Below are positions 460 through 21,324 of a DNA stretch of 23,929 nt, piece after piece. The stretch covers positions 1 through 23,929 of the IMG/VR virus record IMGVR_UViG_3300031851_000184. One strand, 5' to 3'. The DNA comes from a virus. The first letter of the stretch is position 1. The number at the start of each line of letters is the position of its first letter. A program made the translations under genes and the position numbers. Under the pieces are notes generated by a model, which searched no databases, was not told where the DNA came from, and saw only the letters and a list, made by a program, of their open reading frames with translations.

Positions 460-859
460 CTTTTTTACTTTCTTTCTTTAGGAACTTTTGAAGTTCTGAA
501 GTAGAACCAACATATAAATGATTATGTTGTGTTTTAACACTTCCGTTTTCATCTTCTAACTTCTTCAATTTGGTTTGAACGTCTAGTAACTTCTCTGCAG
601 TTTCACCTACAGTTTTAATTAACTGACCTGCTACTTCATATGCACGAGGATTCTCTGTCTCTTTACATACATCTAGAATACCATCTATTGCATCTTGTCC
701 TCTTTCTACAAGTCCATAAAGATTTTCTCTAGTGTACTTATAGTCCGTTTGGACATTATCAGCCTTAGGTGGGGATTTGATTACTTGAGTTGTTTCTTTC
801 TTTATTTCTGAAGAAATATCAAGTACATCATTTAATTTTGAATCTATATCTTTTGCCAT
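449..859 (-). CDS. gp16: Terminase small subunit
   Basis: This 136-residue protein has the form of T4-like small terminase subunits, the ring-forming regulator that recognises DNA and modulates the gp17 motor. It is rich in charged helices: residues about 40-105 look like long amphipathic coiled-coil helices (for example AEKLLDVQTKLKKLEDENG), which form the central domain in this family. It is shorter than T4 gp16 (164 residues). Its place between gp15 and gp17, with a 2-nt gap upstream and an 11-nt overlap downstream, matches T4 and cyanophage order. The start codon is ATG at 859; I see no strong Shine-Dalgarno there, so translation may be coupled to gp15. Confidence 0.87.
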   Translation of the reverse strand: MAKDIDSKLNDVLDISSEIKKETTQVIKSPPKADNVQTDYKYTRENLYGLVERGQDAIDGILDVCKETENPRAYEVAGQLIKTVGETAEKLLDVQTKLKKLEDENGSVKTQHNHLYVGSTSELQKFLKKESKKDDG

Positions 860-861
860 AA

Positions 862-2768: not shown

Positions 2769-2771
2769 AAT

Positions 2772-6753: not shown

Positions 6754-6759
6754 ACTGTT

Positions 6760-6788
6760 ATTATACCTCAATTTTATGTATTTTACAA
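6760..6788 (-). promoter_or_regulatory. Possible sigma70-type promoter (TTGTAA, 17 nt, TATAAT)
   Basis: On the minus strand TTGTAA (about 6783-6788) is separated by 17 nt from a perfect TATAAT (about 6760-6765). Six nt (AACAGT) then separate the -10 box from the ATG at 6753, so +1 would fall on the start codon. This is unlike the other promoters here, which are late-type. It could be a host-polymerase (early) promoter or a chance match in AT-rich DNA. Confidence 0.4.
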
Positions 6789-8395: not shown

Positions 8396-9478
8396 TTAAG
8401 AAGATATAGGTGTTCCAGGCCACGTTTGTGATAAATTACCATCCCATCTAATAACAGGTGTTCTACCTTGTCTAGCATATGTGCCAGGTTGTCTATTTTG
8501 GTATGTAAACGGTGTTTGACCCTGTCTAGCATATGTGCCAGGTTGTCTATTTTGGTATGTAAACGGTGTTTGACCCTGTCTAGCATATGTGCCAGGTTGT
8601 CTATTCTGATAAGTGAATGGAGTCTGACCTTGTCTAGCATATGTGCCAGGTTGTCTATTTTGGTATGTAAACGGTGTTTGTGCATTAACTGGATTCTGAT
8701 AGATACTAGGTTGTCTATTCTGATAAGTGAATGGAGTTTGTGCATTAACTGGATTCTGATAGGTACTAGGTTGTCTATTTTGGTATGTGAACGGTGTTCT
8801 ACCTTGTCTTGCATAGGTGTTAGGTTGTCTATTCTGATAAGTGAATGGAGTCTGTCCTTGTCTTGCATAGGTGTTAGGTTGTCTGTTCTGATATGTAAAC
8901 GGTGTTTGACCCTGTCTTGCATATGTTCCAGGCTGTCTGTTCTGATATGTAAATGGTGTTCTACCAGTTCTTTGATATGTACCAGGCTGTCTGTTACTAT
9001 ATGTAAATGGTACTCTGTAACTTACAGGGTTTCTGTATGTAAATGGTGACCTGTTACTATATGTAAATGGTACTCTGTAACTTACAGGGTTTCTGTATGT
9101 AAATGGTGACCTGTTCTGATAAGTGAACGGTAACTGATAACCTACTGGGTTTCTGTATGTAAATGGAGACCTTCTCTGATAAGTGAATGGTTGTCTAGCA
9201 TTAGCAATATATGGAACCCTGTATGTAAATGGATTTCTATATGTAAATGGTTGTCTAGCATTCGCAATATATGGTACACGATAGGTAAATGGGTTTCTGT
9301 ATGTAAATGGTTGTCTAGCATTCGCAATATATGGAACCCTGTATGTAAATGGGTTTCTGTATGTAAAAGGAGACCTTCCATTAGCGATATATGGCACACG
9401 ATAGGTAAACGGCACCCTATATGTAAATGGTTGCCTAGCGTTTCCTATATTAGGTACTTGATAATTTCCTATTGCCAT
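8396..9478 (-). CDS. Repeat protein A: Tyr/Pro/Arg-rich low-complexity protein
   Basis: This 360-residue protein is made almost entirely of repeats. The N-terminal half uses 20-residue units such as RQPFTYRNPFTYRVPYIANA. The C-terminal half uses 18-residue units such as TPFTYQNRQPGTYARQGQ, with occasional 20-residue variants (PSTYQNPVNAQ). It contains no Lys, Cys, His or Glu and a single Asp near the C-terminus (RWDGN), so it is extremely basic through Arg alone. There is no signal peptide, no membrane segment and no globular C-terminal domain; it ends TWPGTPISS. AGGA about 9 nt before the ATG supports the start. It is related to proteins B, C and D in this window. Context suggests a virion fibre or adhesive element; the function is unknown. 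Base-level repeats are nearly perfect in places. Confidence 0.85.
   Translation of the reverse strand: MAIGNYQVPNIGNARQPFTYRVPFTYRVPYIANGRSPFTYRNPFTYRVPYIANARQPFTYRNPFTYRVPYIANARQPFTYRNPFTYRVPYIANARQPFTYQRRSPFTYRNPVGYQLPFTYQNRSPFTYRNPVSYRVPFTYSNRSPFTYRNPVSYRVPFTYSNRQPGTYQRTGRTPFTYQNRQPGTYARQGQTPFTYQNRQPNTYARQGQTPFTYQNRQPNTYARQGRTPFTYQNRQPSTYQNPVNAQTPFTYQNRQPSIYQNPVNAQTPFTYQNRQPGTYARQGQTPFTYQNRQPGTYARQGQTPFTYQNRQPGTYARQGQTPFTYQNRQPGTYARQGRTPVIRWDGNLSQTWPGTPISS
8466..9450 (-). repeat. Tandem coding repeats of 54 and 60 bp in gene A
   Basis: The DNA repeats with a 54-bp period in 8466-8680 (units around 8470 and 8524 are essentially identical) and a 60-bp period from about 8940 to 9440. Units at 9001 and 9061 are identical except at their last few bases. 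Periods are multiples of three, so unit gain or loss keeps the frame. This is coding repetition, not an intergenic array. Confidence 0.9.
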
Positions 9479-9489
9479 TTATATTTTTC

Positions 9490-9792
9490 CTATACTACTT
9501 CTATTAAAAGAGAACCGTAATGTCCTGTAAGAGTTCTCATATTATCAGGTACATCAATATCATCAGGATATGGAAGAACGTAAGACATTGAGATAATCTC
9601 GGTGATTATATTGTTTTCCACAATCTGTAAAAAGTTATTACAAGCCTCATCATCTACAGTAGTTCCTACCGTAAATTCACTTTCATTTACATTAACATCT
9701 ACTTGATAGTCTACACCATCAATAGTTACCTCTTTTAGAGGATTACTCTTTCTATGTTTTATTCCGTTTTTTAAAAATGTTGTTGTTGCCAT
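9490..9792 (-). CDS. Hypothetical 100-residue protein between repeat genes B and A
   Basis: I do not recognise this 100-residue, mildly acidic protein. It starts with a short basic segment (MATTTFLKNGIKHRKSNPLK) and continues as mixed alpha/beta (DGVDYQVDVNVNESEFTVG) to a hydrophobic end (YGSLLIEVV). It has no repeat units, no membrane segment and no signal peptide. A strong Shine-Dalgarno (GAGGAG, 8 nt before the ATG) supports the start. Its position between two repeat genes, 15 nt after B and 11 nt before A, suggests a partner or assembly factor for them, but nothing in the sequence proves this. Confidence 0.75.
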   Translation of the reverse strand: MATTTFLKNGIKHRKSNPLKEVTIDGVDYQVDVNVNESEFTVGTTVDDEACNNFLQIVENNIITEIISMSYVLPYPDDIDVPDNMRTLTGHYGSLLIEVV

Positions 9793-9807
9793 GTTATTTT
9801 CTCCTCA

Positions 9808-11442
9808 TTATAAAATTGCTAAACTGTTTGGTGAACCACTAGGTGCGACATAAAAAGCAGCACCATTAATGTTTACTGTTTTGTAACAGTAAGTGTCGTT
9901 GTAAGGGTAGAATGTAAACCCTGCAAAAGGATAATCATTCTGACCAGCAGGGGTTATTACTCTAAATTTTGTTGCCGGTGAAGCAGGTAAACTAACATAT
10001 GCACCACTTATATAGAACTGACCAAGGGTTACTGTACCATTTGGACTAGTGCCTGGTGTAAATATTGTAAATTGTTTCCCTGTATTCTCTGACCATGGTA
10101 TAGTTGGGTTTTGAGGCCAGTTACCGTTAGTTCCCAACGGATTATTTCCTGTAGGAGCAAACGGAGATTGACCAAAGTCAAAACCATTTTTCAATGAACT
10201 ATACCCATAGCCAGGGTAAATAGTAGCTGAAGTTGACGTGAATGGCCCAGCAACTAATGGGTCGGGATACGGATATGTACCTGGCGTTCTAAATGAATAT
10301 GTAAATGGTGTCTGTCCATTTGCAGGATATCTTGCATTCGCAGGATATCTAGCACTGTAAGTAAAAGGTTGTCTAGCATTACTAGGTGATTGAGCATTCG
10401 CAGGATACCTAGCATTGTAAGTAAACGGTGATTGTGCGTTACTAGGTGATTGAGCATTCGCAGGATACCTAGCATTGTAAGTAAACGGTGATTGTGCGTT
10501 ACTAGGACTCTGAGCGGCAGCAGGATACCTAGCATTGTAAGTAAACGGTGTTTGACCATTCGCAATAACTGGTTGTTGTGCAGATACTGGGTTTCTATAA
10601 CCTCTTGGAGTTCTAGCATTCGCAATATACGGTTGTTGTGCAGATACTGGGTTTCTGTATCCTGCAGGTTGTCTAGCGTTAGCAATATATGGTTGTTGAC
10701 CGTTTACAGGGTTTCTATATCCAGCAGGTTGTCTAGCGTTCGCAATATATGGGGTCTGACTGTTAGCAATATAAGGATATGGTTGCTGAGCGTTAGCGAT
10801 ATAAGGCGTTTGACTGTTTGCAATATACGGATAAGGTTGTTGTGCAGATGCAATATAAGGCGATTGACTATTCGCAATATATGGATACGGTTGTTGTGCA
10901 TTCGCAATGTAAGGACTCTGACTATTAGCAATATACGGATAAGGTTGTTGTGCAGCTGCAATATATGGTGTTTGTGCATTTACTGGATTTCTGTATGTAC
11001 TAGGTTGTCTTGCATTCGCAATATAAGGTGTCTGAGCGTTACTAGGATTTCTGTATGTACTAGGTTGTCTAGCATTTGCAATGTAAGGTGTCTGACTATT
11101 TGCAATGTACGGATATGGTTGCTGAGCATTTGCAATGTAAGGACTCTGACTGTTTGCTATGTACGGATATGGTTGTTGTGCATTTGCAATATATGGAGTC
11201 TGACTATTAGCAATATAAGGATACGGTTGTTGAGCGTTAGCGATATAAGGAGTTTGACTATTTGCAATATACGGATACGGTTGTTGAGTATTTTGTTGAC
11301 CTGATGCATTATTCCACCCTGTAGGTGTTTTTACATATATTTGGTCTACAGCCTTCCACGTTGTAGAACCTGTTTTAACCCATCCACCTTGAGTTGAACT
11401 CCAACCCGAAGGTGTTTTTACCTTTTGTGACCCTGTTGCCAT
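9808..11442 (-). CDS. Repeat protein B: Tyr/Pro/Gln repeats with N- and C-terminal domains
   Basis: This 544-residue protein has three parts. Residues 1-50 form a small domain with three GW motifs and VDQIYVKTPTGW at 32-43. Residues about 53-390 are repeats, first 18-residue units (QQPYPYIANSQTPYIANA) and later 20-residue units (ARQPAGYRNPVSAQQPYIAN, SPFTYNARYPANAQSPSNAQ). Residues about 391-544 form a globular, aromatic and Gly-rich domain (PYPDPLVAGPF, PGYGYSSL, SPFAPTG, WPQNPTIPW, IFTPGTSPNGTV) that clearly matches the C-terminus of protein D. The repeat zone lacks acidic residues. It is probably a fibrous virion protein with a distal globular tip. A terminator-like hairpin lies just upstream, and the ATG has AAGG about 11 nt ahead. 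Confidence 0.85.
   Translation of the reverse strand: MATGSQKVKTPSGWSSTQGGWVKTGSTTWKAVDQIYVKTPTGWNNASGQQNTQQPYPYIANSQTPYIANAQQPYPYIANSQTPYIANAQQPYPYIANSQSPYIANAQQPYPYIANSQTPYIANARQPSTYRNPSNAQTPYIANARQPSTYRNPVNAQTPYIAAAQQPYPYIANSQSPYIANAQQPYPYIANSQSPYIASAQQPYPYIANSQTPYIANAQQPYPYIANSQTPYIANARQPAGYRNPVNGQQPYIANARQPAGYRNPVSAQQPYIANARTPRGYRNPVSAQQPVIANGQTPFTYNARYPAAAQSPSNAQSPFTYNARYPANAQSPSNAQSPFTYNARYPANAQSPSNARQPFTYSARYPANARYPANGQTPFTYSFRTPGTYPYPDPLVAGPFTSTSATIYPGYGYSSLKNGFDFGQSPFAPTGNNPLGTNGNWPQNPTIPWSENTGKQFTIFTPGTSPNGTVTLGQFYISGAYVSLPASPATKFRVITPAGQNDYPFAGFTFYPYNDTYCYKTVNINGAAFYVAPSGSPNSLAIL
10270..11290 (-). repeat. Tandem coding repeats of 54 and 60 bp in gene B
   Basis: The segments 10381-10440 and 10441-10500 are identical 60-mers. 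The block from about 10740 to 11290 repeats with a 54-bp period and more synonymous drift. Mixing of identical and diverged neighbours suggests repeated local duplication over time. Confidence 0.9.
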
Positions 11443-11461
11443 ATTCTATATTACCTTATAA

Positions 11462-11493
11462 AGTTAAAAATTAAATACTCTTACTAAGAGTAT
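11462..11493 (-). terminator. Probable intrinsic terminator after the 910-residue fibre gene
   Basis: An 8-bp inverted repeat (ATACTCTT / AAGAGTAT) with a 3-nt loop lies at 11475-11493. On the minus strand it is followed by TTAATTTTTAACTT. The fibre stop codon (TAG) spans the loop and stem edge. The stem is AT-rich, so it may be a weak terminator or an mRNA 3'-end stabiliser between the fibre and repeat gene B. Confidence 0.55.
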
Positions 11494-14216
11494 AAAACCC
11501 ATAAATCACCAACTGCACCATCACTACCTGTAGGAGATGAAGTTGATTGATATATGTTTCTCACATATCCACCCGAGTTCGAAGTGTTACTAGTTGTTAT
11601 TGTTCCTAGTGTTGCATTAGAACCACTCTCATATTTAGTGTTTAAGGCAGTCTGTAGTCCGTCAACATTTGCAATTGTGTGATTATGCGAATCGTCTGCA
11701 ACTGCAGCTGAAATTGTAATATTACCAGTTCCATCAAATGATGCAGAACCTGATAAGTCTCCACCCAATGCAATTGTTCTTGCAGTAGTTAACTTAGCAG
11801 CACTAGATGCAGTAGAAGCGTTTCCTGTTAATGAACCTTCAAAAGAAGATGCCTTAACATTATGTGAACCAAATGTCCATTCGTCTTCTGACTCGTCCCA
11901 TGTCAATGAAACATTAGCAGAAGTTCCTCTTTCAACTTCAATACCTGAATCCTGTGAAGGTGTTCCAGTAACATCATTGTTAAGTGTAATGATATTATCA
12001 GATACATTAAGCGTTGCAGTGTTAACAGTTGTTGTAGTTCCGTTAACAGTCAAATCACCTGAAAGTGTAAGGTCTGCGAATTGAACATCACTAGTTGTTG
12101 AAACTGCCTGTCCAATACTAATTGCACCACCACTGAATCCAACACCAGTACCTGCACTTAAATGAGCACGAGTCTCAGCAGCACTTGGGCCTGTATATGT
12201 TATCACACCAGTACCACTGTTATATGCAAGTGAACCATCTCCACCTGAATCTGTTACTGATAGTTTACCTCTTACTTGTGAATCACTGATACCTGAATAT
12301 GTGATTGCACCAGTTGAAGAGTTGTATGATAGCGAACCATCTCCAGCGTTATCTGTTACCGATATTAGTCCTCTTACTTCTGCATCTGTTCTTTCTGTGA
12401 ATGAGAAAGCACCAGTTCCACTGTTGTATGATAAATCTCCACCAGCAGATAATAAACCTCTAATACTTCCATCTGATAAACCAGCAAGTGTAAGTGTTCC
12501 AGCAGTATCGTCATATGTAGAAGTGATGTTTGTTCCACCAACTACTAAACCATTTACGATATCTTCGATTTCTTCTTCAGTTTTTCCTGAAGTATTAATT
12601 GTAAGTGTTCCAGCAGTGTCATCATATGATGTTGTTATGTTAGTACCACCAACCAATAATGCATTTACTCTGTCATCAACTCTTTCTGAAGTATGATATA
12701 AGTTACCATTTTCTGAAATATCACCAGTGTCTAGTGTTACTGAAGAACCTAATGCAGTTGAACTTCCGTTAACTGTTATTGTTGAGTTCGCAAGTTTATT
12801 ATTTGCGATTGAACCTGCAAGTTTACTTTGATTGATTGAACCTGCCAACATAGCATTAGTAATACCTGATGCCTTAACCTGAACTGTATCTGTATCTATT
12901 TCTAATGAACTGTCATCAACATTTACGTTTAAAGTTACATCACCTGAAGTTCCACCACCAGTTAAACCAGTACCAGCAACTACGGATTCTATATCACCAG
13001 CATCATTTGTGAATGATATTACACCACTAGTAGAGTTATATGATAAATCACCACTAACACTAATCGCACTTCTTGCCCTTGCAGCAGTATGATAAAGGTT
13101 ATTCGAACCTTCTGTAATTTCGTCTGAATTGTCTTTAGTAGCAACTTGAGCATCAACATATGCCTTTACGGATTGCTGTGATGGAAGTTTTGTAGCACTA
13201 TCAGAGACCATGTTGTCTTCGTCTATTAATGCATTAGTAATTCTTGCATCTACTCTTGCAGATGTGTGATAAAGGTTAGTTGAACCTTCAGTGATTTCGT
13301 CTGTATTGTCTTTACCTGCAACTTGTGAGTCTACATATGCCTTTACGGATTGTTGTGAAGCAGCGTGAGATGCACTGTTTGATGTCATATCATCTTCATC
13401 TTTAAGGTCTAAGTTTACAGTAACAGCACCTGAAGTTCCACCACCAGTTAAACCTGTTCCAGCAACTACAGATTCTATATCACCTGCATCATTAGTAAAT
13501 GATATTACACCAGTTGAACTATTGTATGATATATCACCACTTGCAGATAGAGCAGCTCTTGCTCTTGCATCTGTAAAGTAAAGATTGGAACCTTCTGTAA
13601 TTTCGTCTGTATTGTCTTTACCTGCAACTTGTGAGTCAACGTATGCTTTTACTGACTGTTGACTTGGAAGTTTAGTAGCACTATTTGATGCCATATTATC
13701 TTCATCAACTAATGCATTTGTAATTCTAGCATCTGCTCTTGCATCTGTAAAGTAAAGGTTACTTGAACCTTCTGTTATTTCATCTGTATTGTCTTTTGTT
13801 AGAATACTTGCATCAACATAAGCTTTAATTGATTGTTGTGATGCAGCGTGAGATGCACTGTTCGAAGACATATCGTCTTCGTCTTTAAGGTCGATTGCAA
13901 TGTCATCTGCGTTTACAGTAATACCTGTACCAGCACCAATGTTTAATGTTGCATCACCTGAAGTTGCAGTACCAGTTAAACCAGCACCAGCATTTACTCC
14001 TGTGATATCTCCAACATTACCTGTGATTGTTAATGTGTTAGCAGAATCATCATATGATAATCCAATACCAGCACCAGCAGTTAGTAACGAAGCAACTCTA
14101 TCGTCAATAGTCTCACTACCAATAGCAGCACCAGTAATAGAACCACTAGAGTCTATAACCTCTACACCACCAACGGATAGACCATTTTTAATATTAAAAT
14201 TCTTTTCTCCAGCCAT
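11484..14216 (-). CDS. Long modular tail-fibre-like structural protein (910 residues)
   Basis: This is a large Gly/Ser/Thr/Asp-rich beta-type fibre protein without Cys. The N-terminus (GLSVGGVEVIDSSGSITGAAI) is shared with the 76-residue upstream protein. Residues about 115-430 contain repeated cassettes: DEDNMASNSATKLPSQQS, KAYVDSQVAGKDNTDEITEG and LYFTDARA. Next come repeated SYNSGTG and RGLLSAGGDL units. A late module (SGDLTVNGTTTTVNTATLNV and on to TWDESEDEWTFG) recurs in two other proteins here. It ends SSPTGSDGAVGDLWVLYS, a typical capping end. It is probably a trimeric side or short fibre; baseplate location is inferred. The ATG overlaps the previous stop (TAATG) and GGAGGG lies 8 nt upstream. 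Confidence 0.85.
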   Translation of the reverse strand: MAGEKNFNIKNGLSVGGVEVIDSSGSITGAAIGSETIDDRVASLLTAGAGIGLSYDDSANTLTITGNVGDITGVNAGAGLTGTATSGDATLNIGAGTGITVNADDIAIDLKDEDDMSSNSASHAASQQSIKAYVDASILTKDNTDEITEGSSNLYFTDARADARITNALVDEDNMASNSATKLPSQQSVKAYVDSQVAGKDNTDEITEGSNLYFTDARARAALSASGDISYNSSTGVISFTNDAGDIESVVAGTGLTGGGTSGAVTVNLDLKDEDDMTSNSASHAASQQSVKAYVDSQVAGKDNTDEITEGSTNLYHTSARVDARITNALIDEDNMVSDSATKLPSQQSVKAYVDAQVATKDNSDEITEGSNNLYHTAARARSAISVSGDLSYNSTSGVISFTNDAGDIESVVAGTGLTGGGTSGDVTLNVNVDDSSLEIDTDTVQVKASGITNAMLAGSINQSKLAGSIANNKLANSTITVNGSSTALGSSVTLDTGDISENGNLYHTSERVDDRVNALLVGGTNITTSYDDTAGTLTINTSGKTEEEIEDIVNGLVVGGTNITSTYDDTAGTLTLAGLSDGSIRGLLSAGGDLSYNSGTGAFSFTERTDAEVRGLISVTDNAGDGSLSYNSSTGAITYSGISDSQVRGKLSVTDSGGDGSLAYNSGTGVITYTGPSAAETRAHLSAGTGVGFSGGAISIGQAVSTTSDVQFADLTLSGDLTVNGTTTTVNTATLNVSDNIITLNNDVTGTPSQDSGIEVERGTSANVSLTWDESEDEWTFGSHNVKASSFEGSLTGNASTASSAAKLTTARTIALGGDLSGSASFDGTGNITISAAVADDSHNHTIANVDGLQTALNTKYESGSNATLGTITTSNTSNSGGYVRNIYQSTSSPTGSDGAVGDLWVLYS

Positions 14217-14446
14217 TATAATGTCCCTCCATCAATCTGAACATTTGCCAGAGTTTTAGATGTAGATGCATCTGAAAGATGCGTATCTACTAATGAGTTT
14301 GCGTAGTACTTAGCGGAACCTTCTGCAAGATTATCAGTAGTTAAATCTGATATTGCAGCTGCAACTATCTTACCTGATGAATTGATTACTTCGGTGGTTC
14401 CAACACTGACTCCGTATTCTACTACAAATTTGTTTTGTGTTGCCAT
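14216..14446 (-). CDS. Mini fibre-module protein ending IDGGTL
   Basis: This 76-residue protein matches the N-terminal module of the 910-residue fibre that follows (here GVSVGTTEVINSSGKIVAAA), then has one NLAEGSAKYYANSLVD unit and ends ANVQIDGGTL. It thus looks like a stand-alone N-terminal fibre module rather than a broken gene: it has its own late promoter about 43 nt upstream and AGGA before the ATG. Its stop overlaps the next ATG. It may be an adaptor or assembly partner of the 910-residue fibre. Confidence 0.75.
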   Translation of the reverse strand: MATQNKFVVEYGVSVGTTEVINSSGKIVAAAISDLTTDNLAEGSAKYYANSLVDTHLSDASTSKTLANVQIDGGTL

Positions 14447-14488
14447 TTTTTCGTGTGTCCTATTTGAAAAATTACTTTATCTACATAC

Positions 14489-14496
14489 TATTTAGA
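14489..14496 (-). promoter_or_regulatory. T4-type late promoter (TCTAAATA) for the 76- and 910-residue genes
   Basis: The minus strand reads TCTAAATAGTATG in the 82-nt gap upstream of the 76-residue gene. Predicted +1 is about 14483, giving a 37-nt leader with AGGA 11 nt before the ATG. A 5-bp inverted repeat (GAAGA / TCTTC, 14495-14510) lies immediately upstream of the box; its role is unclear. Confidence 0.72.
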
Positions 14497-14528
14497 AGAT
14501 AGTGTTCTTCATAAAGTACGTTTTTTTA

Positions 14529-15272
14529 CTAAACTTTTAATAAATTTCTACTTATTTTGAATGCAGTAGAGGATGCTGAAGCAGGAGTTACTCTTAGTCT
14601 AACATTTCCTGAATTTGTGTCAACCGACAAACTAAAAAGTGAATTGTTTGTATAGATATCCCCAAATTGAGAGAAGAAAGCATTAGTAGAATTGTGTATT
14701 ACCATAACTTCTGTTGCATGGTAGTTAGTTCCTTGTGATGCTTGTATATGATACTTTGCACTTCTATAACTTAATAGTGGAAATGTATCTAAATTAACTT
14801 CCGTAGTTGCAGTTGTTGTTAAATTTTGGTCTGCGTCCATTCTCAAATTACTTAAAGAGAGTGGGCCTACTGCAGTTAACTGACCTGTTGCTTCTATATC
14901 ACCAGCTTTAAAGTCTGCATATGCATAACCTGTTCCACTAATGTTTACTGTATTTCCTGGCTCGACTTCTAATCCATCAAAAAGTTTCCAAGTTGAATCA
15001 CTTGCATCTCTGAAAAGACCTGTATATTCACTTGACCCGTCTGATAATCCATCATCATAGTTTCCATATACACCTATATCTAATAAATCACTTGTAGTGT
15101 TTCCACTTGCAAGTTCAAACATAGAATCAGTAACTGAAACTGTTGTTGAGTCGATTGTTAAACTACTTCCTTGAACCGTAAAGTTACCAGTGACTGTTAA
15201 GTCACCATCTACGGTACTGTTGTCTAAGGATTGAAACCCTAAATCTGTAAAGAACTTAGTTTTAGTTGCCAT
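14529..15272 (-). CDS. Fibre/decoration protein with shared C-terminal module (247 residues)
   Basis: This is a structural beta-type protein. Residues about 20-105 contain the module DGDLTVTGNFTVQG, DSTTVSVTDSMFELAS, then a YTGLFRDASDSTWKLFDG strand. This is the same unit seen in the 910- and 543-residue proteins. Residues about 150-247 form a C-terminal module (TTATTEVNLDTF, YRSAKYHIQAS, HATEVMVIHN, SGNVRLRVTP) shared with the next two upstream genes. No Shine-Dalgarno is seen; a late promoter box ends 5 nt before the ATG, predicting a leaderless mRNA. A strong terminator separates it from the upstream gene, so it starts its own transcript. Confidence 0.8.
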   Translation of the reverse strand: MATKTKFFTDLGFQSLDNSTVDGDLTVTGNFTVQGSSLTIDSTTVSVTDSMFELASGNTTSDLLDIGVYGNYDDGLSDGSSEYTGLFRDASDSTWKLFDGLEVEPGNTVNISGTGYAYADFKAGDIEATGQLTAVGPLSLSNLRMDADQNLTTTATTEVNLDTFPLLSYRSAKYHIQASQGTNYHATEVMVIHNSTNAFFSQFGDIYTNNSLFSLSVDTNSGNVRLRVTPASASSTAFKISRNLLKV

Positions 15273-15277
15273 AATAC

Positions 15278-15285
15278 TATTTATA
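15278..15285 (-). promoter_or_regulatory. T4-type late promoter (TATAAATA) abutting a start codon
   Basis: The minus strand reads TATAAATAGTATT followed directly by the ATG at 15272. With the box at -13 to -6, +1 is the A of the ATG. It lies right after the terminator hairpin, making a compact terminator-promoter-start junction. Confidence 0.82.
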
Positions 15286-15286
15286 C

Positions 15287-15316
15287 AAAAAGAAAGGGGG
15301 ACTTAATGTCCCCCTT
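15287..15316 (-). terminator. Strong intrinsic terminator after the 136-residue gene
   Basis: A 9-bp GC-rich stem (AAGGGGGAC / GTCCCCCTT, 15294-15302 and 15308-15316) with a 5-nt loop is followed on the minus strand by TTCTTTTTG. Flanking poly-T on the plus side means it could also stop antisense transcription. It ends the transcript of the 274- and 136-residue genes. Confidence 0.85.
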
Positions 15317-15338
15317 AAAGATTTTTTTAAAATCCGTT

Positions 15339-15749
15339 CTAAGCGTCTACTGTAGTCCTATCGAACTTAATAACTGTAGATGATGTACTTTCGGGTGTAA
15401 CTAATAATCTTAGGTTATCCCCTGAAATATCAGCATCAAATGAAGCCAGGTTACTAGATTTTAAAGTACCATATTGAGTTAACGTAACTGCAGAACCATC
15501 ATGAACCACAACAACTTCAGTAGAGTGGAAATCACTTCCACTAGACATTGCAACTATGTATCTTGCAGCCCTATACGTTGCGTGAGCAAATGTATCGAGT
15601 GCAACTTCTGTAGTTGCAGTTGTTGTTGTATCATTGGACACTCTGTCAGCAGATTGAATTTTCTTTGTAGTAGTGATTTCATCATTTGCTACATCAAATT
15701 GGATTCCACGAATTAACTCAGCAATTTTAAATGCATTTGTTTTTGCCAT
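15339..15749 (-). CDS. Small decoration protein consisting mainly of the shared C-terminal module
   Basis: This protein has 136 residues. Residues 1-40 are a short helical or linker N-terminus (AFKIAELIRGIQFDVANDEI), and about 41-136 are the module shared with its two neighbours: TTATTEVALDTF, YRAARYIVAMSS, HSTEVVVVHDG, NLRLLVTPES. It is therefore close to a minimal version of that module. AGGAG precedes the ATG, and the gene lies 9 nt after the 274-residue gene. It is probably a virion surface or fibre-tip component; the binding target is unknown. Confidence 0.78.
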   Translation of the reverse strand: MAKTNAFKIAELIRGIQFDVANDEITTTKKIQSADRVSNDTTTTATTEVALDTFAHATYRAARYIVAMSSGSDFHSTEVVVVHDGSAVTLTQYGTLKSSNLASFDADISGDNLRLLVTPESTSSTVIKFDRTTVDA

Positions 15750-15758
15750 GTTTTACTC

Positions 15759-16583
15759 CTATTGTAATCTGATTTGGAATGTCTTTAATGTTGTATTTGT
15801 ATTAGAAGGTGTTACTAACAATCTCATATTTCCACTATCTATATCCGAAGATAAAGCAAATAATGAAGAACTTGAGAATGCATCACCATACTGTACAAAG
15901 TATGCATTAGTGCCATCGTTAATTAATAATACTTCAGCCGCATGTGTACCAGCAGTAGCGTGAGATGCCATTATGACATATTTCACAGCTTTATTGCCGA
16001 CAGCATTAGAACTCAATACTTGGTCTGCTGTAGTAGCAGTTAGTGCAGAAGTTGTAAAGAACCCCTGAACTAAATTTGATATTGAAGTCTGAGCGACTAT
16101 CTCTAGTACATCTCCTGAAACTGCAGTTGCCTGTAGTGTTATTGTAGAAGTGTTTGTTCTTGCATAGTCGTCTCCGACAACAAGTTTAACACCATTTAGG
16201 TATACCTGTTCTAATCCAAGTGTGTACGATAAGGATGCTCCATTATCGTCACTACCTGAAAAAGCAGTAGTATTACCTGTAACACTATAAGTAAATGTAG
16301 TAACACCAGTTGAAGGTGCATCAGTGAAACCTATGGTTCCACTTCCGTCTGTGGATAATAATTGTCCACTTGTACCATCACTAGTTGGAAATGTAACTGC
16401 ATCATTTATGGTTAGTGTAGAAGGGTTTGACCCGACTTCTACTACAGCAGCAGACCCATCATTCTTTTCAGTGTAAAACCTACCGTGGTAAGTATTTACA
16501 GCAAGCTCCCCTAGTGATAAATCACTAGTCGCAGGAACTTGATTTTGAGTAGAACTTCTTTTAAATTGGATTACTGTTGCCAT
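15759..16583 (-). CDS. Fibre protein with Mtd-like N-terminus and shared C-terminal module
   Basis: This protein has 274 residues. The N-terminus (MATVIQFKRS, then SDLSLGELAVN) follows the pattern of the N-terminal virion-attachment domain found in phage tropism determinants and collar fibres. Residues about 120-165 (EQVYLNGVKLVVGDDY, then SGDVLEIVA) form a small beta module common in marine phage fibres. Residues 181-274 form the C-terminal module shared with the next two genes (VKYVIMASHA, HAAEVLLINDG, NMRLLVTPSN). AGGAG 6 nt before the ATG supports the start. It is likely a short fibre or tip protein. Confidence 0.8.
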   Translation of the reverse strand: MATVIQFKRSSTQNQVPATSDLSLGELAVNTYHGRFYTEKNDGSAAVVEVGSNPSTLTINDAVTFPTSDGTSGQLLSTDGSGTIGFTDAPSTGVTTFTYSVTGNTTAFSGSDDNGASLSYTLGLEQVYLNGVKLVVGDDYARTNTSTITLQATAVSGDVLEIVAQTSISNLVQGFFTTSALTATTADQVLSSNAVGNKAVKYVIMASHATAGTHAAEVLLINDGTNAYFVQYGDAFSSSSLFALSSDIDSGNMRLLVTPSNTNTTLKTFQIRLQ

Positions 16584-16620
16584 TTTACTCTCCTATTGAA
16601 TTGGTTAATCGGACTATTAA

Positions 16621-18252
16621 TTAAAATGTTCCACCGTCAATAGCAGTAACTGCTACAGCACCTGAAGTAACTGTAAAGTTATCTGAAGCAAAACTTGCAA
16701 TACCTTTTACTGAAGTAGTAGCATCTTTAATAGATACAGCACCTGAAGATACGTCAAATATTGCAGAAGCAAAACTTGCGATACCTTTATTAGATGTTGT
16801 AGCGTCTTCTGCAGACAATGTGATTGCACCGTCAGCATTAGTTACGTCAAGACCTTCACCTGCAGTTAAAGTTGCAAGTTCCATATCTCCGTTAGTACCG
16901 TTTCCAATCATCAACTGACCAGCAGTTGGAGCAGAACCGTCTATAGATGTTATTGAACCACTTAAAGCAAGACCAGCACCTGATAAGTTACCAGCAGTTG
17001 ATAGACTTCCTACTGTTAATGCACCAAATTCTGCATCACCAACACTTCCACTGAAGACTGAAGATGTATCTGTCGCATCTTGGATAAATTTGAATTTACC
17101 ATCAGAGTCGTCCATACCAAAGAAACCAACTTTTGCAGCTGAACCATTGTGCCAGTTGAATTTGATACCTCTGTCTAAGTTATCGTCTGAAGTTCCTTCA
17201 CCGATTTCAAATACAGGGTCATCAATTTCTACTGTTGTAGAGTTAACTGTTGTTGTTGTTCCGTTTACTGTCAAGTTTCCTGAAACTGTTAAGTTTCCTG
17301 TTGCAGCTATGTTTGTAGATGTGATGTCATCAGATGTAAGTGTTCCATCAACGTCTAAGTTGTTGAAAGTTACGTTATCTGTTGTACCTACTGCCTGACC
17401 AATAGCGAAAGTTGCCGCTTGTCCTGAAACAGAAGTTGTTACACCAGTTCCACCAGTAAATGTGATTGACTGTGAGTCTAAGTCGACTGCACCAGTTCCT
17501 GAATCACCAGCAAGGTCTAAGTCCTGTGCTGTTACTTGTGAATCTACATATGCTTTTACAGATTGCTGAGAAGGAACTTTAACTGCAGAGTCTGAAGCCA
17601 TATTGTCTTCGTCTACTAAGAAGTCGATTTTTCCTACTGTTACATTACTGTCTGCAATCATTGCTGTTTCTACAGCGTCGTTTGCGATTGTTACAGCACC
17701 ACTAGATGCCATAGTAACGTCACCACTCATTGATACGTTGTCAAAAGAATTACTTCCGTCATGAACAAGTAGTTGTCCACCTGTTGGAGAAGAGATATCT
17801 GAATCCGTTGCACCTGCTAGTGTTGATGTTGTTGATAAGAATGATAAGTTTCCACTACCGTCTGTACCAATTACTTGGTTAGCAGAACCGTCTGCAGTTG
17901 GAAGTACGAATGTTGTTGAAGCACCTAATGTATCAGCAGCTTTCAATGCAACGAAGTTTGTTCCGTTGTCTGAATCTTCTAATAATTGTACACTTGCACC
18001 AGCAGTTGAACCATTACCAACCTTAAGGTTAGCTGGAGTTGCTTTTGCACCGTCCAAGATGTCCGTGTAGTATTTACCACCGACTTCGTGAATAGCTGCA
18101 GCTCCTAATGAGTCTACTGATTCTATGTATAACTTAGCACTTGCACCGTCATTCGACCTATCCTGAACGTACGCCAATTCACCTTCTGATAAATCAGATA
18201 CTGCAGGAGCAGCGGAACCCGTACTTCTTTTAATTTGAATTACTGTTGCCAT
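16621..18252 (-). CDS. Modular tail-fibre-like protein with Mtd-like N-terminus, ending IDGGTF
   Basis: This protein has 543 residues. It opens MATVIQIKRSTGSAAPAVSD, the same attachment-type start as the 274-residue gene. The middle contains DEDNMASDSAVKVPSQQS followed by KAYVDSQV, as in the 910-residue fibre, then NLTVNGTTTTVNSTTVEIDD and FNWHNGSAAKVGFFGMDDSD, a version of the module also found in the 247- and 910-residue proteins. The C-terminal part has repeated TTSNKGIASFASA-type units and ends VTAIDGGTF. It has its own promoter with an unusually long leader (about 128 nt). AGGA lies 9 nt before the ATG. It is a probable fibre protein. Confidence 0.83.
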   Translation of the reverse strand: MATVIQIKRSTGSAAPAVSDLSEGELAYVQDRSNDGASAKLYIESVDSLGAAAIHEVGGKYYTDILDGAKATPANLKVGNGSTAGASVQLLEDSDNGTNFVALKAADTLGASTTFVLPTADGSANQVIGTDGSGNLSFLSTTSTLAGATDSDISSPTGGQLLVHDGSNSFDNVSMSGDVTMASSGAVTIANDAVETAMIADSNVTVGKIDFLVDEDNMASDSAVKVPSQQSVKAYVDSQVTAQDLDLAGDSGTGAVDLDSQSITFTGGTGVTTSVSGQAATFAIGQAVGTTDNVTFNNLDVDGTLTSDDITSTNIAATGNLTVSGNLTVNGTTTTVNSTTVEIDDPVFEIGEGTSDDNLDRGIKFNWHNGSAAKVGFFGMDDSDGKFKFIQDATDTSSVFSGSVGDAEFGALTVGSLSTAGNLSGAGLALSGSITSIDGSAPTAGQLMIGNGTNGDMELATLTAGEGLDVTNADGAITLSAEDATTSNKGIASFASAIFDVSSGAVSIKDATTSVKGIASFASDNFTVTSGAVAVTAIDGGTF

Positions 18253-18397
18253 TTTTTATTTTCCTATAAAAAAGTTATGTTATTTTAAATGACCCGTCAC
18301 TATCTGGGCCGTGATTTCATAATATATTTCTGTCCACTCACAATGTGGGTCGTTGTCTCAATGTCGACAACCTTGATTTGTATTAGTATTTAGACAA
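18253..18397 (-). promoter_or_regulatory. Long, possibly structured leader with late promoter
   Basis: This 145-nt gap, the longest in the window, holds a CTAAATA late box at 18387-18393 (+1 near 18381). Between the box and the ATG at 18252 I see three short inverted repeats: GTTGTC / GACAAC (18352-18371), CCAC / GTGG (18334-18348) and TCAC / GTGA (18297-18314). None is followed by a T-run, so they are more like leader structure than a terminator. No known riboswitch or tRNA is recognised. Confidence 0.5.
18387..18394 (-). promoter_or_regulatory. T4-type late promoter (TCTAAATA) with long leader
   Basis: The minus strand reads TCTAAATAC five nt after the stop codon of the 81-residue gene. 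Predicted +1 is about 18381, leaving about 128 nt before the 543-residue fibre ATG. It lacks the AAATAGTA extension of most other boxes here. Confidence 0.65.
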
Positions 18398-18643
18398 TTA
18401 AAATGTTCCACCATCTATAGAAGTGGTAGTTGTCCATTTATCAGAAGAGGCATCATATGAAAGAAGTCCGTCATCTGTTTCTGTTGCATTTACATCTGCA
18501 AGTTCGTTTAAATTTTTAGTTGATATATCTGTAGTAGTAGATGCATTTCCTATCGCAACCTGTTTTGCACGAAGGTTGCCTTGTCCTTGTATTCGTCCAC
18601 CGATAGTTGCAACTCTACTTAATGTTCCTTTTATGTTGCTCAT
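18398..18643 (-). CDS. Small structural protein ending IDGGTF
   Basis: This protein has 81 residues. It begins MSNIKGTLSRVATIGGRIQG and continues NLNELADVNATETDDGLLSY and DASSDKWTTTTSIDGGTF. The LADVN ... DGLLSYDASSDKW pattern is the usual display/linker motif of phage fibre proteins. The ending is shared with the 543- and 76-residue proteins. ATGA overlap with the preceding gene plus AGGAG 7 nt upstream supports the start. It is probably a minor virion or fibre-adaptor protein. Confidence 0.75.
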   Translation of the reverse strand: MSNIKGTLSRVATIGGRIQGQGNLRAKQVAIGNASTTTDISTKNLNELADVNATETDDGLLSYDASSDKWTTTTSIDGGTF

Positions 18644-18972
18644 CTTGTCACTCCTGGCGTCACAATTGCCTGACCTTCAACAACTCTAGTTTTGTTTCCT
18701 CCACCACTGGTGACTGTCATATCATAGACATATCTACCAGCTTCTAATGCTGTTGTTTGTGTGTCTGTTAATGCCATGGTAACTTGCCCACTTGATTCTT
18801 GTACGGTGCATGTGAATGTTCCACTTGCAGTTGAAGAAGAATATGTTTTTCTTATTTGTGCAGCTGCAGAGTATCCTGACATGTTTAATACATCACCTGA
18901 AGAGTCTGTAACATCTACAGTGATTGAAAAGTCAGCACCTTGGTCGATAAATATGTTTGCAAGTATAGCCAT
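18640..18972 (-). CDS. Ig-like small virion protein, BppU-N-like
   Basis: This 110-residue beta-sandwich type protein has IFIDQGADFSITVDVTDSSG at 7-26, LNMSGYSAAAQIRKTY at about 29-44, then a hydrophobic/Thr strand series, ALEAGRYVYDMTV at about 80-92 and VVEGQAIVTPGVTR at the end. This order of motifs resembles the N-terminal domain of baseplate upper proteins (BppU) and small virion proteins of marine phages. No Shine-Dalgarno lies at the right distance; a TATAAATA box ends 6 nt before the ATG, so the mRNA would have 0-1 nt of leader. Confidence 0.77.
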   Translation of the reverse strand: MAILANIFIDQGADFSITVDVTDSSGDVLNMSGYSAAAQIRKTYSSSTASGTFTCTVQESSGQVTMALTDTQTTALEAGRYVYDMTVTSGGGNKTRVVEGQAIVTPGVTR

Positions 18973-18978
18973 ATATAC

Positions 18979-18986
18979 TATTTATA
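18979..18986 (-). promoter_or_regulatory. T4-type late promoter (TATAAATA) next to a start codon
   Basis: The minus strand reads TATAAATAGTATAT and then the ATG at 18972. With standard geometry +1 is 18973, one base before the ATG. It lies just before the stop of repeat gene C and separates that gene from the decoration genes. Confidence 0.82.
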
Positions 18987-18991
18987 CCTTT

Positions 18992-19942
18992 TTAAGTCTT
19001 GTTAAACTGGCCAGTAGGAACTGACTGGTGAATTTTCTCTACAGTTCCACTATCATTGACATATATCTCATCAACCTTTTCAACACTTCCATTATTGTTT
19101 CTGAATACACCTTTAACTTTTGCAATCGGGCCAACTGTTCTAGTTGTTGTATATGGTTGTTGGAACGTATACGATTGTTGGTATGAGTATGGCGCCTGAT
19201 AAGGTTGTCTTGTAGTACTAGGTTGTCTAGCATTAGCAATATATGGAATCGTATATGTAAACGGATGACGGTAAATAGAAGGTTGTCTATTTTGATATAT
19301 TACTGGTGTCCTTGCAGGAGTTGGAGTCGTATATGTCGCTGGATGTTGATATGTAAACGGTGTTCTACCTTGTGTAGCATATGTACTAGGTGACCTATTC
19401 TGATAAGTGAATGGACTTTGTGCATTTGCTTCATATGTAGCAGGTTGTTGTGCATTCGCAGTATATGGATAGGGTTGTTGATGGTCATAGTTTACTATAG
19501 ATTGTCCATTCGCAATATACGGATAAGGTCTTTGTGCAGATGCAATAGGTCTTGTTGCTGGAGTTTGTCCAGCAAATGGATATGATACCGTTCCTTGATT
19601 TATAAATGGGTAGGGAGTTTGTGCATTCGCAGTATATGGGTAAGGCCTTTGTGCAGTTGCAATAGGTCTTGTTGCTGGAGTTTGCATATTAGCAGGATAT
19701 GGAACCTGAGCAATAGCAGGGCCTCTAGCAGAGTATTGTGCATTTGCAATAAAAGGTACTTGATATTGTGCATTATTTTGTGCATTTGCAATAATGGGTA
19801 CTTGATATTGTGCATTATTTTGTACATTTACCTGTCTTATTGCAGGAGCCTGATGAGAGTAAAATCTTGTTGCAGTATACTGAACATTGACTGGAGTTCT
19901 TGCAGGAGTTATGTAAGGTTGTTGTGTTTGTCCTATTGCCAT
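18992..19942 (-). CDS. Repeat protein C: Tyr/Pro/Gln repeats with C-terminal DEIYV module
   Basis: This protein has 316 residues. Residues 1-265 are repeats related to A, B and D but more varied: NVQNNAQYQVPIIANAQNN, QRPYPYTANAQTPYPFINQG, SPFTYQNRSPSTYATQGRTP, YSYQQSYTFQQPY. Residues about 270-316 form a short non-repetitive end (AKVKGVFRNNNGSVEKVDEI, YVNDSGTVEKI). The DEIYV motif at 291-295 matches the N-termini of B (DQIYV) and D (DEIYV). The ATG overlaps the stop of D (TAATG) with GGAG 8 nt upstream. It is likely a fibre or adhesin partner of D, as A is of B. Confidence 0.83.
   Translation of the reverse strand: MAIGQTQQPYITPARTPVNVQYTATRFYSHQAPAIRQVNVQNNAQYQVPIIANAQNNAQYQVPFIANAQYSARGPAIAQVPYPANMQTPATRPIATAQRPYPYTANAQTPYPFINQGTVSYPFAGQTPATRPIASAQRPYPYIANGQSIVNYDHQQPYPYTANAQQPATYEANAQSPFTYQNRSPSTYATQGRTPFTYQHPATYTTPTPARTPVIYQNRQPSIYRHPFTYTIPYIANARQPSTTRQPYQAPYSYQQSYTFQQPYTTTRTVGPIAKVKGVFRNNNGSVEKVDEIYVNDSGTVEKIHQSVPTGQFNKT
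19130..19930 (-). repeat. Degenerate coding repeats in gene C
   Basis: Short units coding for P-[YF]-x-[YA] strings recur with less regular spacing than in A and B. Examples are two copies of a GQTPATRPIA[ST]AQRPYPY-type unit and the twice-repeated NAQYQVP[IF]IANAQ. Confidence 0.75.
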
Positions 19943-21324
19943 TAGTACATCTCCACTTTTTGTGTTCCATACGCACTAGCAACATAATAACCTGCACCAA
20001 ATACACTCACTGACCAATACCAAGTATGGTCAGCTGGAGAACCAGTAGAAGTTCCTTGTGAAGTACTCAATGTAGAGGTCTGTTCATTTGGTCGTCCAAT
20101 ATTGGTAGTACATTTCATATATTGAATGTCAACTCCTACATTACCTGTTGGGCCTCCACCACTCTCATCTGTCAAATCATAGTAAGTACCACTTGGTGTT
20201 CCCTTATACACATGTCCAATATAGACTGTACCAGTTGGATTAGTGCCTGGTGTAAAGATACTGTAATGTACACCTGAATTTAATGCCCATGGTATATTTG
20301 GATTTTGAGGCCAACCATTATTTCCACTATCTGATGGATTACCATTAGCACCCAATGGTCTACTCCCAACTGGTGCAAAAGGAGAACCGTTTCCTTTAAA
20401 TCCGTTTAGAGATGAATTGTACCCATAGCCAGGATTTACAGTATCAACTCTAGAGAAAAACGGCCCTAATACAATTGGGTCGGGATAGGTATATTCAACA
20501 GGTCTTCTTGCACCAACACTAGAAGGTTGTTGTGCAGTACTTGGGTGTTGATAAGGTTGTGCTACAATAACAGGTGTATTATACGGCTGTGAAACAGTCG
20601 TTGGATGCTGATACGGTGCAGGTTGTTGATGCTGATATGTCGTTGGATGCTGATACGGTGCAGGTTGTTGATGTTGATATGTCGTTGGATGTCTATATGT
20701 AACCTGATAATTTCCAGTAACCTGATGGGTATATGTTGAAGGAACCCTATATGATTGTTGGAATGAGTAAGGTTCACTCCCCTGTCTTTGATATGTAGAA
20801 GGTTGACGACCAGTATCATTGAATTCATAAGGTTGTTGACCTTGTCCAGTATATGGGTTCTGATAACTTTGTTGAAAACTATATGGTTCTTGACCCTGTC
20901 TTGCATATGTAAATGGCTGTCTCGTTGTTGCAATAACAGGAGAAGTTCCCTGTCTCTGATATGTGAAAGGGTTTCTTGTATTTGCCTGATATATGGAAGG
21001 TTGTCTAGCATTCGCAATATATGGAGATTGTGCATTCGCAATATAAGGATAAGGTTGTTGTGCAGACGCTTGGTAAGTATAGTTTCTTACTGTTTGAACT
21101 ATAGATGGTACTTGTCTGTTTGCATTATAAGGTGTCTGAGCGTTACTAGGTTGTCTAGCATCTGCAGGTTGTCTGTTCTGATAGGTAAACGGTGTTTGTA
21201 CATTGACAGGTCTTCTAGCAATATACTGCGCCTGTGCAATAGGTGTAGTACCTTGTGCAACCCCTTGTCCTTGGTAAGGTTGTTGGAACGAAGTTCCTAT
21301 ATTTACATAAATTTCATCAGACAT
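19942..21324 (-). CDS. Repeat protein D: Tyr/Pro/Gln repeats with C-terminal globular domain
   Basis: This protein has 460 residues. It begins MSDEIYVNIGTSF (the DEIYV motif at 3-7). Residues about 13-278 are repeats such as QQPYPYIANAQSPYIANARQ, TPFTYQNRQPADARQ, EPYSFQQSYQNPY and 14-residue TYQHQQPAPYQHPT units, the last adding His. Residues about 279-460 are a globular end with YPDPIVLGPFF, NPGYGYNSSLNGF, SPFAPVGSRPLGANG, WPQNPNIPW and IFTPGTNPTGTVYIG, clearly homologous to the end of B. It starts 1 nt after the fibre stop with no strong Shine-Dalgarno, so translation is probably coupled. It is a probable fibre with a distal receptor-binding tip. Confidence 0.85.
   Translation of the reverse strand: MSDEIYVNIGTSFQQPYQGQGVAQGTTPIAQAQYIARRPVNVQTPFTYQNRQPADARQPSNAQTPYNANRQVPSIVQTVRNYTYQASAQQPYPYIANAQSPYIANARQPSIYQANTRNPFTYQRQGTSPVIATTRQPFTYARQGQEPYSFQQSYQNPYTGQGQQPYEFNDTGRQPSTYQRQGSEPYSFQQSYRVPSTYTHQVTGNYQVTYRHPTTYQHQQPAPYQHPTTYQHQQPAPYQHPTTVSQPYNTPVIVAQPYQHPSTAQQPSSVGARRPVEYTYPDPIVLGPFFSRVDTVNPGYGYNSSLNGFKGNGSPFAPVGSRPLGANGNPSDSGNNGWPQNPNIPWALNSGVHYSIFTPGTNPTGTVYIGHVYKGTPSGTYYDLTDESGGGPTGNVGVDIQYMKCTTNIGRPNEQTSTLSTSQGTSTGSPADHTWYWSVSVFGAGYYVASAYGTQKVEMY
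20590..20690 (-). repeat. 42-bp coding repeats in gene D
   Basis: Two adjacent, nearly identical 42-bp units code for the 14-residue unit TYQHQQPAPYQHPT. They differ by a single base in the part I compared, indicating recent duplication. Confidence 0.85.

Follow-up and report, generated by a model that had tools for sequence, protein, structure and literature searches.

Acid-poor repeat proteins with a two-residue proline/aromatic register, encoded beside a glycosyltransferase and two oxygenases among the tail-fibre genes of a marine T4-like phage

A 23,929-nucleotide stretch of viral DNA (IMG/VR record IMGVR_UViG_3300031851_000184, positions 1 to 23,929; hereafter the window) encodes four repeat proteins, A, B, C and D, whose prolines and aromatic residues keep a two-residue register. 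The four genes form two pairs (D+C and B+A), each immediately preceded by a fibre gene, and downstream of A lie a putative glycosyltransferase (GT) and two 2-oxoglutarate/Fe(II) (2OG-Fe(II)) oxygenases. Tentatively, with a confidence that falls a little short of even, the repeat proteins are read here as tip or shaft proteins of tail fibres that are hydroxylated, and probably glycosylated, by the co-encoded enzymes. The window comes from a marine phage of the T4-like type: relatives of terminase, gp15, gp14 and gp13 lie at 1-3587, and the nearest isolates, such as HTVC008M and P-SSM2, show about 66-70% DNA identity across 17-23% of it.

A two-residue register in four repeat proteins

The sequence-only reading of this DNA had described four acid-poor proteins with periods of 18 or 20 residues, and both descriptions hold. 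A-D are intact, complete open reading frames (ORFs) on the minus strand at the places assigned to them, and aspartate plus glutamate account for 1 of 360 residues in A, 6 of 544 in B, 7 of 316 in C and 18 of 460 in D. Autocorrelation peaks at lags 20 and 18 in A and B, 10 and 18 in C, and 38, 20 and 18 in D, and Tandem Repeats Finder (TRF) gives periods of 54, 60 and 108 bp in A and B. Protein A is repeat over its whole length apart from a conserved tail (RTPVIRWDG.L.Q.WP) and contains 5% glycine, with tyrosine and threonine about as frequent as proline. B begins with a VKTP.GW-type N-terminus and has a non-repeat C-terminal domain in common with D, while C has a C-terminal tail of its own. 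Neither the two-residue register nor the GT and two oxygenases downstream had formed part of that reading.

The distance between successive prolines is even in 44/46 cases in A, 61/74 in B, 34/38 in C and 40/50 in D, values reached by none of 2000 shuffles for each protein. In A, the next proline follows at a distance of 6, 8 or 10 residues in 44/46 cases, and all 65 aromatic residues located within nine residues after a proline are at +1 or +3.

A search of IMG/VR with one degenerate motif (PFTYQNRQP) matched at least 119 stretches, six of them being 99.96-100% matches to the window. Repeat ORFs of at least 80 amino acids, defined by motif density, are present in 118 of the 119 (207, plus the four of the window) and occur mostly in adjacent pairs. 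For the register, 366 proteins were clustered at 70% identity into 83, and spacings of up to 20 residues were counted. Among these non-redundant relatives 3168 of 3412 Pro-Pro spacings are even, the lowest single protein reaching 80%, compared with a mean of 47% and a maximum of 50% in composition shuffles and with 46% in 400 other Pro-containing proteins of the fetched loci. Positions +2, +4 and +6 after proline are mainly Thr/Ile, Gln/Asn and Gln/Arg, and +1 and +3 are Tyr, Phe and Ala; the selection motif requires aromatics at +1 or +3, so that the pooled aromatic counts there are partly selected, and the first DNA motif contains two prolines eight apart. Free of this selection are the window's own A-D, the insert of a cyanophage fibre described below, and the aromatics at offsets 5-10 from proline, which lie outside the detection motif and number 404 at odd and 73 at even offsets.

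With regard to specificity, 435 proteins that had not been picked by the motif and have at least 12 spacings were compared, 22 of which reach 75% even. Sixteen of the 22 are fibres of the type found in Synechococcus phage S-SCSM1 (one from that isolate and 15 from IMG/VR records), and none of the remaining six has more than 16 spacings; outside the clade, 6 of 31 such proteins reach 70%, each with at most 18 spacings. Two long clade records (G001, 153 kb; G002, 151 kb) each encode four Pro-rich register proteins in two pairs, all within the fibre region, together with a few flagged proteins of at most 16 spacings, and two further clade records, G003 and G004, each encode four register proteins in their first 120,000 bases.

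Protein A is under purifying selection, with a ratio of non-synonymous to synonymous substitution rates (dN/dS) of 0.08-0.13 against four orthologues; for B the ratio is 0.19-0.26 against three. Against its four orthologues A shows 15 gaps, every one of an even length. Since a single gene in locus L221 joins the start of B to the tail of A, these two proteins look like parts of one structure. Beta strands with one face turned inward and one outward give rise to such alternation, and from this we infer that the register fits extended beta strands with two faces.

Comparison with named repeat families

The sequence-only reading knew of no named family for these repeats, and the profile searches agree. 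No Pfam model scores above its cut-off for A-D, and the PHROG collection yields no model, giving only short, low-scoring stretches (best E-values 1.1e-5 for A, with no single stretch passing, and 0.0037 for C over 35 residues). As judged by sequence, the class fits no named family. Its separation from collagen-like, pentapeptide and Gly-rich repeats is likewise upheld: a lag of 3, as expected for glycine at every third residue, is not among the leading lags, and A has little glycine. Triple beta-spiral fibre shafts have a 15-residue repeat, which does not appear among the leading lags of A-D either. The resemblance to Pro-rich wall proteins of eukaryotes fares less evenly. It may have a chemical basis, because a GT and two 2OG-Fe(II) oxygenases lie just downstream; the Pro runs of plant extensins (SPPPP), in contrast, are missing, with adjacent prolines in 11 of 3412 spacings.

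When 50,697 phage records were searched by tblastn, A matched 28 records, the matches to D were confined to Pseudomonas records and none was better than E 0.3, and there was no match for B at 1e-5 or for C at 10. Two of the matches to A were rejected. That in Pseudomonas phage Flu_PA14_4 (L335 4001-4735, E 6e-13) is a tandem repeat off the annotated frame with 25/51 even spacings and is taken as chance, and that in Vibrio phage F23s1 (L336 7-423, E 3e-10) is a perfect 24-bp repeat, also taken as chance. Searches of this kind with repeat proteins can thus mislead, since tandem repeats such as these mimic A in another reading frame. No cultured member of the repeat clade was found. The psbA family had no match in eight clade records of about 820 kb together, and a cyanobacterial host is therefore not supported.

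The co-encoded enzymes

The C-terminal part of the GT resembles family GT8 (PF01501) at E 9e-4 and 19.3 bits, below the cut-off of 24.3, and 6 of 18 relatives match that model at E ≤ 0.01. An AlphaFold (AF2) model with a predicted local distance difference test (pLDDT) score of 83 aligns with LgtC over 202 residues (Z 15.2, root-mean-square deviation (rmsd) 3.2), and GlyE, glycogenin, LARGE1 and the Skp1 galactosyltransferase are further structural neighbours. Foldseek places the WbbM and UGGT glycosyltransferases at the top, with modest TM-scores of at most 0.55 by target length, and also lists the capsid glycosyltransferase of PBCV-1 (E 2e-3). A GT-A fold with a DxD metal site is present, Asp380 and Asp382 being invariant in 18 sequences.

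The sequence pattern of the GT N-domain had raised the suspicion of a ParB-like fold, which was dropped when a search of PDB sequences with its profile gave no match at E ≤ 10; since the full model served as query in both structure searches, this domain was barely probed by structure. Separate genes similar to it occur in two clade genomes, in loci L304 (8597-9229, E 9e-9) and L312 (2708-3544, E 9e-8), next to what by eye are apparent CMP-Kdo synthetase and HAD-like genes, and hence the N-domain may also occur without a GT domain.

Oxygenase 1 is recognised by PF13640, which matches 18 of 18 members at E ≤ 0.01, and its HxD...H iron ligands (His127, Asp129 and His197) are invariant in 18. In the PDB its profile matches prolyl 4-hydroxylase alpha best, at E 0.001; EGLN1 and TPA1 come next and are weak, at E 0.1-0.8. 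On these matches the enzyme is likely a prolyl hydroxylase. The PDB matches of oxygenase 2, a PF13759 member, include no prolyl hydroxylase. With regard to p61, a similarity to S-SCSM1 ORF247 is unsupported (hhalign probability 0.2%).

Conservation of the cassette

The order repeat gene(s), GT, p61, oxygenase 1, p46, oxygenase 2, small ORF and gp13 recurs in IMG/VR with few insertions. It was followed in the best 80 of 309 GT relatives and the best 80 of at least 579 gp13 relatives; contigs recur between the scans, and near-identical contigs are counted separately in the GT counts and in those for the S-SCSM1 fibre below. A repeat gene lies at most two genes upstream of the GT in 75 of the 80 GT loci. 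Three others begin at the GT, and the two without a repeat gene, L124 and L148, have only 306 and 522 bases upstream. In the gp13 scan, 24 of 80 loci are at least 64% identical to the window's gp13, and among the 18 of these that reach the GT position a GT is found in 17 and a repeat gene in 16 (L203 starts inside the GT). None of the 56 loci at 57% identity or less has a GT or repeats, a negative weakened by the fact that only 13 of them have at least 5.5 kb upstream; about ten of the 56 have a gene similar to oxygenase 2 or oxygenase 1. The cassette marks one clade.

Seven large records (70-154 kb) each encode one full GT, seen adjoining repeats in six of them, together with two to six PF13640 and two to five PF13759 matches, several of which are far from fibres. 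Two contigs of the clade, L174 and L197 (L204 being the same contig as L197), have an additional gene of 430 amino acids that separates p46 from oxygenase 2.

A similar register in an isolated cyanophage

The isolated cyanophage S-SCSM1 encodes a short tail fibre (QFG06509) with an Arg/Pro/Phe repeat in its middle, which is lacking in the neighbouring paralogue. In this insert 28 of 30 Pro spacings are even, a value that none of 5000 shuffles attains, and all 23 aromatics stand at odd offsets, so that the Pro register is that of A-D, with few tyrosines. The two fibre genes are flanked by seven oxygenase genes, four immediately upstream and three downstream. GenBank names each of them a 2OG-Fe(II) oxygenase, and RefSeq does so for five, giving the other two as minor coat protein and ferrochelatase; five of the seven score over the cut-off of Pfam oxygenase models, one matches only DUF6445, below its cut-off, and one has no match. 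Seven of ten genes around the fibre being oxygenases gives a hypergeometric value of 1e-6, which ignores the mutual clustering of oxygenase genes.

Among 19 IMG/VR loci found with this fibre, 15 have the register and some relatives of the oxygenases nearby, and four match part of it only. Protein A matches the S-SCSM1 fibre at a tblastn E of 0.1, and the two repeat types may be homologous or convergent. The S-SCSM1 fibre resembles A-D in its two-residue Pro/aromatic register and in the oxygenase genes on both sides, and differs in that the Arg/Pro/Phe-rich segment is an insert within a fibre and no GT is near. Among 48 proteins with at least 12 spacings from 11 regions of nine phages (one of them a single-cell genome, and two P-SSM2 regions overlapping), this fibre is the only clear register case; a second protein, of S-SKS1, reaches 10/14 even spacings. 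The pelagiphage isolates HTVC008M (L120 17655-19894) and Mosig (L332 14811-19896) also have 2OG clusters between fibre and neck genes, and in P-SSM2 oxygenases lie among replication genes. The genome of S-SCSM1 is reported to encode 24 oxygenases, for which a reprogramming of host metabolism has been proposed, with no tie to fibres in the parts of that report available (PMC9602691).

Proposed mechanism and alternative explanations

The sequence-only reading had placed the repeats in a virion gene cluster, and the pairs do lie between tail-fibre genes, a gene for an LtfC-like assembly protein and neck genes. Among the roles it had offered, that in a tail fibre gains from this position and from the short tail fibre of S-SCSM1 with the same register, and head decoration is rejected on gene position. 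In the explanation proposed here, the phage would have two tail fibres, and each repeat pair would build the outer portion of one of them, as its distal shaft or tip. The chain would have two faces, one with Pro, Thr/Ile, Gln/Asn and Arg and the other with Tyr, Phe and Ala, and in extended beta strands the aromatic face would turn to the inside of the fibre and the Pro/Thr/Arg face to the outside. Late in infection, oxygenase 1 would hydroxylate prolines of the exposed face, and the GT8-like enzyme would attach a sugar, either to hydroxyproline or to Thr or Tyr. Such a fibre, hydroxylated and probably glycosylated, may stabilise or tune the binding to the host surface.

A wider proposal is somewhat doubtful: that marine T4-like phages have a glycosylated beta fibre rich in hydroxyproline, whose chain follows a two-residue code for hundreds of residues and is tailored by enzymes of the same operon, the abundant prolyl-hydroxylase-like genes of marine phages being, at least in part, a fibre-tailoring system, in at least two lineages. 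If true, it would mean an oxygen-dependent tailoring of a phage fibre and a new repeat architecture for fibres, and could explain why routine tryptic proteomics of virions might miss such fibres (Lys+Arg is 44/360 in A). The gene order that links the oxygenases here to a single, conspicuous Pro-rich candidate substrate is conserved, and the cultured S-SCSM1 permits a direct test, so that the role of such phage enzymes becomes testable.

Several observations weigh against hydroxylated and glycosylated fibres. No GT relative is found in 48 kb around the S-SCSM1 fibre, the record note of its repeat protein lacks the words "virion protein" that its neighbour's note has, and HTVC008M and Mosig show no protein with a two-residue register in the regions read. 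More 2OG oxygenases occur elsewhere in these phages without such repeats. The cassette marks a single clade, and the association of GT, repeats and oxygenases could therefore come from shared descent. In L220 (gp13 66% identical) p61 and both oxygenases are kept, and there are no fibres, repeats or GT before p61. With regard to the register itself, B and its orthologues differ by odd as well as even gaps along their whole length, and perfect tandem copying of an even unit keeps spacing even by itself, as in a Vibrio phage 8-residue repeat (16/16); it is the mixing of 6-, 8- and 10-residue units that makes the register informative. Finally, the AlphaFold model of A (21-row alignment) has a pLDDT of 39 and lacks secondary structure. 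This leaves the register as the argument for a beta fold, and the failed model is not taken as evidence for or against a fold. As an observation apart, L220 (1-6034) has unrelated ORFs of 241 and 503 amino acids before p61 and offers a natural comparison for the cassette.

Rather unlikely is an alternative in which the repeats are unmodified receptor-binding tips that vary by repeat number, and the GT and oxygenases modify the host envelope, for example the O-chain of lipopolysaccharide (LPS), blocking co-infection. A-type proteins do range from about 206 to 559 amino acids across relatives. The T-even tip adhesin gp38, whose gene lies directly behind the fibre gene, has the same position as the repeats, although gp38 has Gly-rich motifs and is without the Pro/Tyr register. 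Furthermore, GT homologues in Mosig and S-SCSM2R are found among carbohydrate or methyltransferase genes, away from fibres, and GT8 enzymes in the host-recognition region of pelagimyophages have been assigned to O-chain modification (PMC7029224). However, no sugar-nucleotide or other LPS gene was recognised in the cassette, in which p61 and p46 are without known function; a repeat gene precedes the GT in 75 of the 77 loci that reach upstream, the other two being cut short; and the GT and the repeats are both missing before p61 in L220.

A modification of the fibre on other residues, with a glycogenin-like GT adding sugar to Tyr or Thr and the oxygenases hydroxylating Asn, Arg or Asp, is unlikely too. 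The structural neighbours of the GT include glycogenins, Tyr and Thr in A are about as abundant as Pro, and no prolyl hydroxylase occurs among the PDB matches of oxygenase 2, whereas prolyl hydroxylases are the best matches of oxygenase 1 and the S-SCSM1 fibre has the Pro register with few Tyr.

It is improbable that the repeats are disordered, sticky (Tyr/Arg) adhesives or condensate-forming coats with no regular fold. Such coats would agree with a composition rich in Tyr, Arg, Gln and Asn and with the lack of structure from AlphaFold, but they would leave 93% even Pro spacing over units of 6, 8 and 10 residues without a clear reason, as well as the aromatics mostly at odd offsets and the solely even-length gaps among A orthologues.

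That the oxygenases and the GT serve in DNA-base modification or DNA repair, and adjoin fibre genes only incidentally, is very improbable: phage base-hypermodification systems do combine oxygenases and glycosyltransferases, but in the seven large, possibly incomplete records there is no Tet/JBP match over cut-off (weak matches in two of the seven) and no member of the thymidylate-synthase/hydroxymethylase family, oxygenase 1 is nearest to prolyl hydroxylases, and the single full GT lies beside repeats in the six of seven records whose GT neighbourhood was covered. DNA repair has been proposed for cyanophage 2OG oxygenases in two papers (PMC9146016, PMC3686209).

Relation to known systems

Virus-encoded modification of virion proteins is already known as a kind. 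An alga-infecting giant virus has its own prolyl hydroxylase, as oxygenase 1 would be here; a 1999 study, by its title, reportedly gives evidence for 4-hydroxyproline in viral proteins, and the substrates of that enzyme are said to include Pro-rich repeats. That virus is not known to us to combine a fibre repeat, a glycosyltransferase and a hydroxylase in a fixed operon. In the Skp1 hydroxyproline-glycan pathway of Toxoplasma and Dictyostelium, a prolyl hydroxylase reportedly acts before glycosyltransferases, in the order proposed for the window; the substrate there is a regulator protein and here a repeat fibre, and the Skp1 galactosyltransferase (6mw5) is similar to the GT at the level of fold only (Z 13.3, rmsd 3.2, 177 residues aligned). 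GlyE of Streptococcus pneumoniae, which has a GT8-like catalytic domain (Z 14.3, rmsd 3.0, 187 aligned), acts on a serine-rich-repeat adhesin; its system thus shares a repetitive adhesin acceptor, but one that is Ser-rich, and is without a hydroxylase.

According to the Phold paper, marine phage oxygenases resemble human EGLN3 (PMC12774648), and a paper that mentions collagen in viral tail fibres calls the use of the enzyme cryptic (PMC9301287). The literature found, much of it in partial form, neither describes the repeat class nor names a phage fibre protein as the substrate of phage oxygenases. The class appears to be unnamed and the cassette undescribed in the searchable literature.

Gene order and other features

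The genes are transcribed in the order fibre (608 aa), D, C, LtfC-like assembly protein, more fibre genes, fibre (910 aa), B, small protein, A, GT, p61, oxygenase 1, p46, oxygenase 2, small ORF and gp13 (Table 1). From the 910-aa fibre gene to oxygenase 2 the intergenic gaps are only -38 to 41 nt, which suggests that these genes are co-transcribed. A late-promoter motif, TATAAATA, was found four times against 3.3 expected, and no promoter is claimed.

Table 1. Features of the window, in order of transcription (aa, amino acids)
Feature	Position	Strand	Profile match
Fibre gene, 608 aa; precedes pair D+C (gap 1 nt)	21326..23152	-	phrog_697 structural protein, E 3.6e-7
D, repeat protein, 460 aa; N-terminal repeats and C-terminal domain common to B	19942..21324	-	
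C, repeat protein, 316 aa; one-base overlap with end of D	18992..19942	-	
LtfC-like tail-fibre assembly protein, 110 aa	18640..18972	-	phrog_3304, E 1.2e-23; Pfam LtfC, E 3e-5, 25.0 bits (cut-off 27)
Fibre gene, 910 aa; precedes pair B+A (gap 41 nt)	11484..14216	-	phrog_697, E 2.7e-43; tail protein phrog_1197, E 7.5e-14
B, repeat protein, 544 aa; short VKTP.GW N-terminal part, repeats, C-terminal domain	9808..11442	-	
Small protein, 100 aa, between B and A; present in only part of the clade	9490..9792	-	
A, Arg-rich repeat protein, 360 aa; conserved C-terminal tail	8396..9478	-	
Putative glycosyltransferase (GT), 521 aa; N-domain about 1-290 without assigned function, GT8-like GT-A domain 291-521	6802..8367	-	
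p61, conserved protein, 191 aa; cassette member without known function	6196..6771	-	
Oxygenase 1, 2OG-Fe(II) oxygenase of prolyl-hydroxylase type	5473..6192	-	PF13640, 37.5 bits (cut-off 27)
p46, phrog_7084 protein; cassette member without known function	4611..5504	-	E 6.5e-33
Oxygenase 2, second 2OG-Fe(II) oxygenase	3917..4648 (longest ORF to 4750)	-	PF13759, 68.6 bits (cut-off 27)

Relatives of the 100-aa small protein were found by phmmer in 14 of 120 sequences (the 119 motif loci and the window). A large internal duplication lies at 12927-13892 in the 910-aa fibre gene, where a 483-bp unit occurs twice (80% match). Long open frames run antisense to the repeat genes on the plus strand (8468-9049 and 10492-11304); they are not treated as genes and are probably a by-product of the repeated codons.

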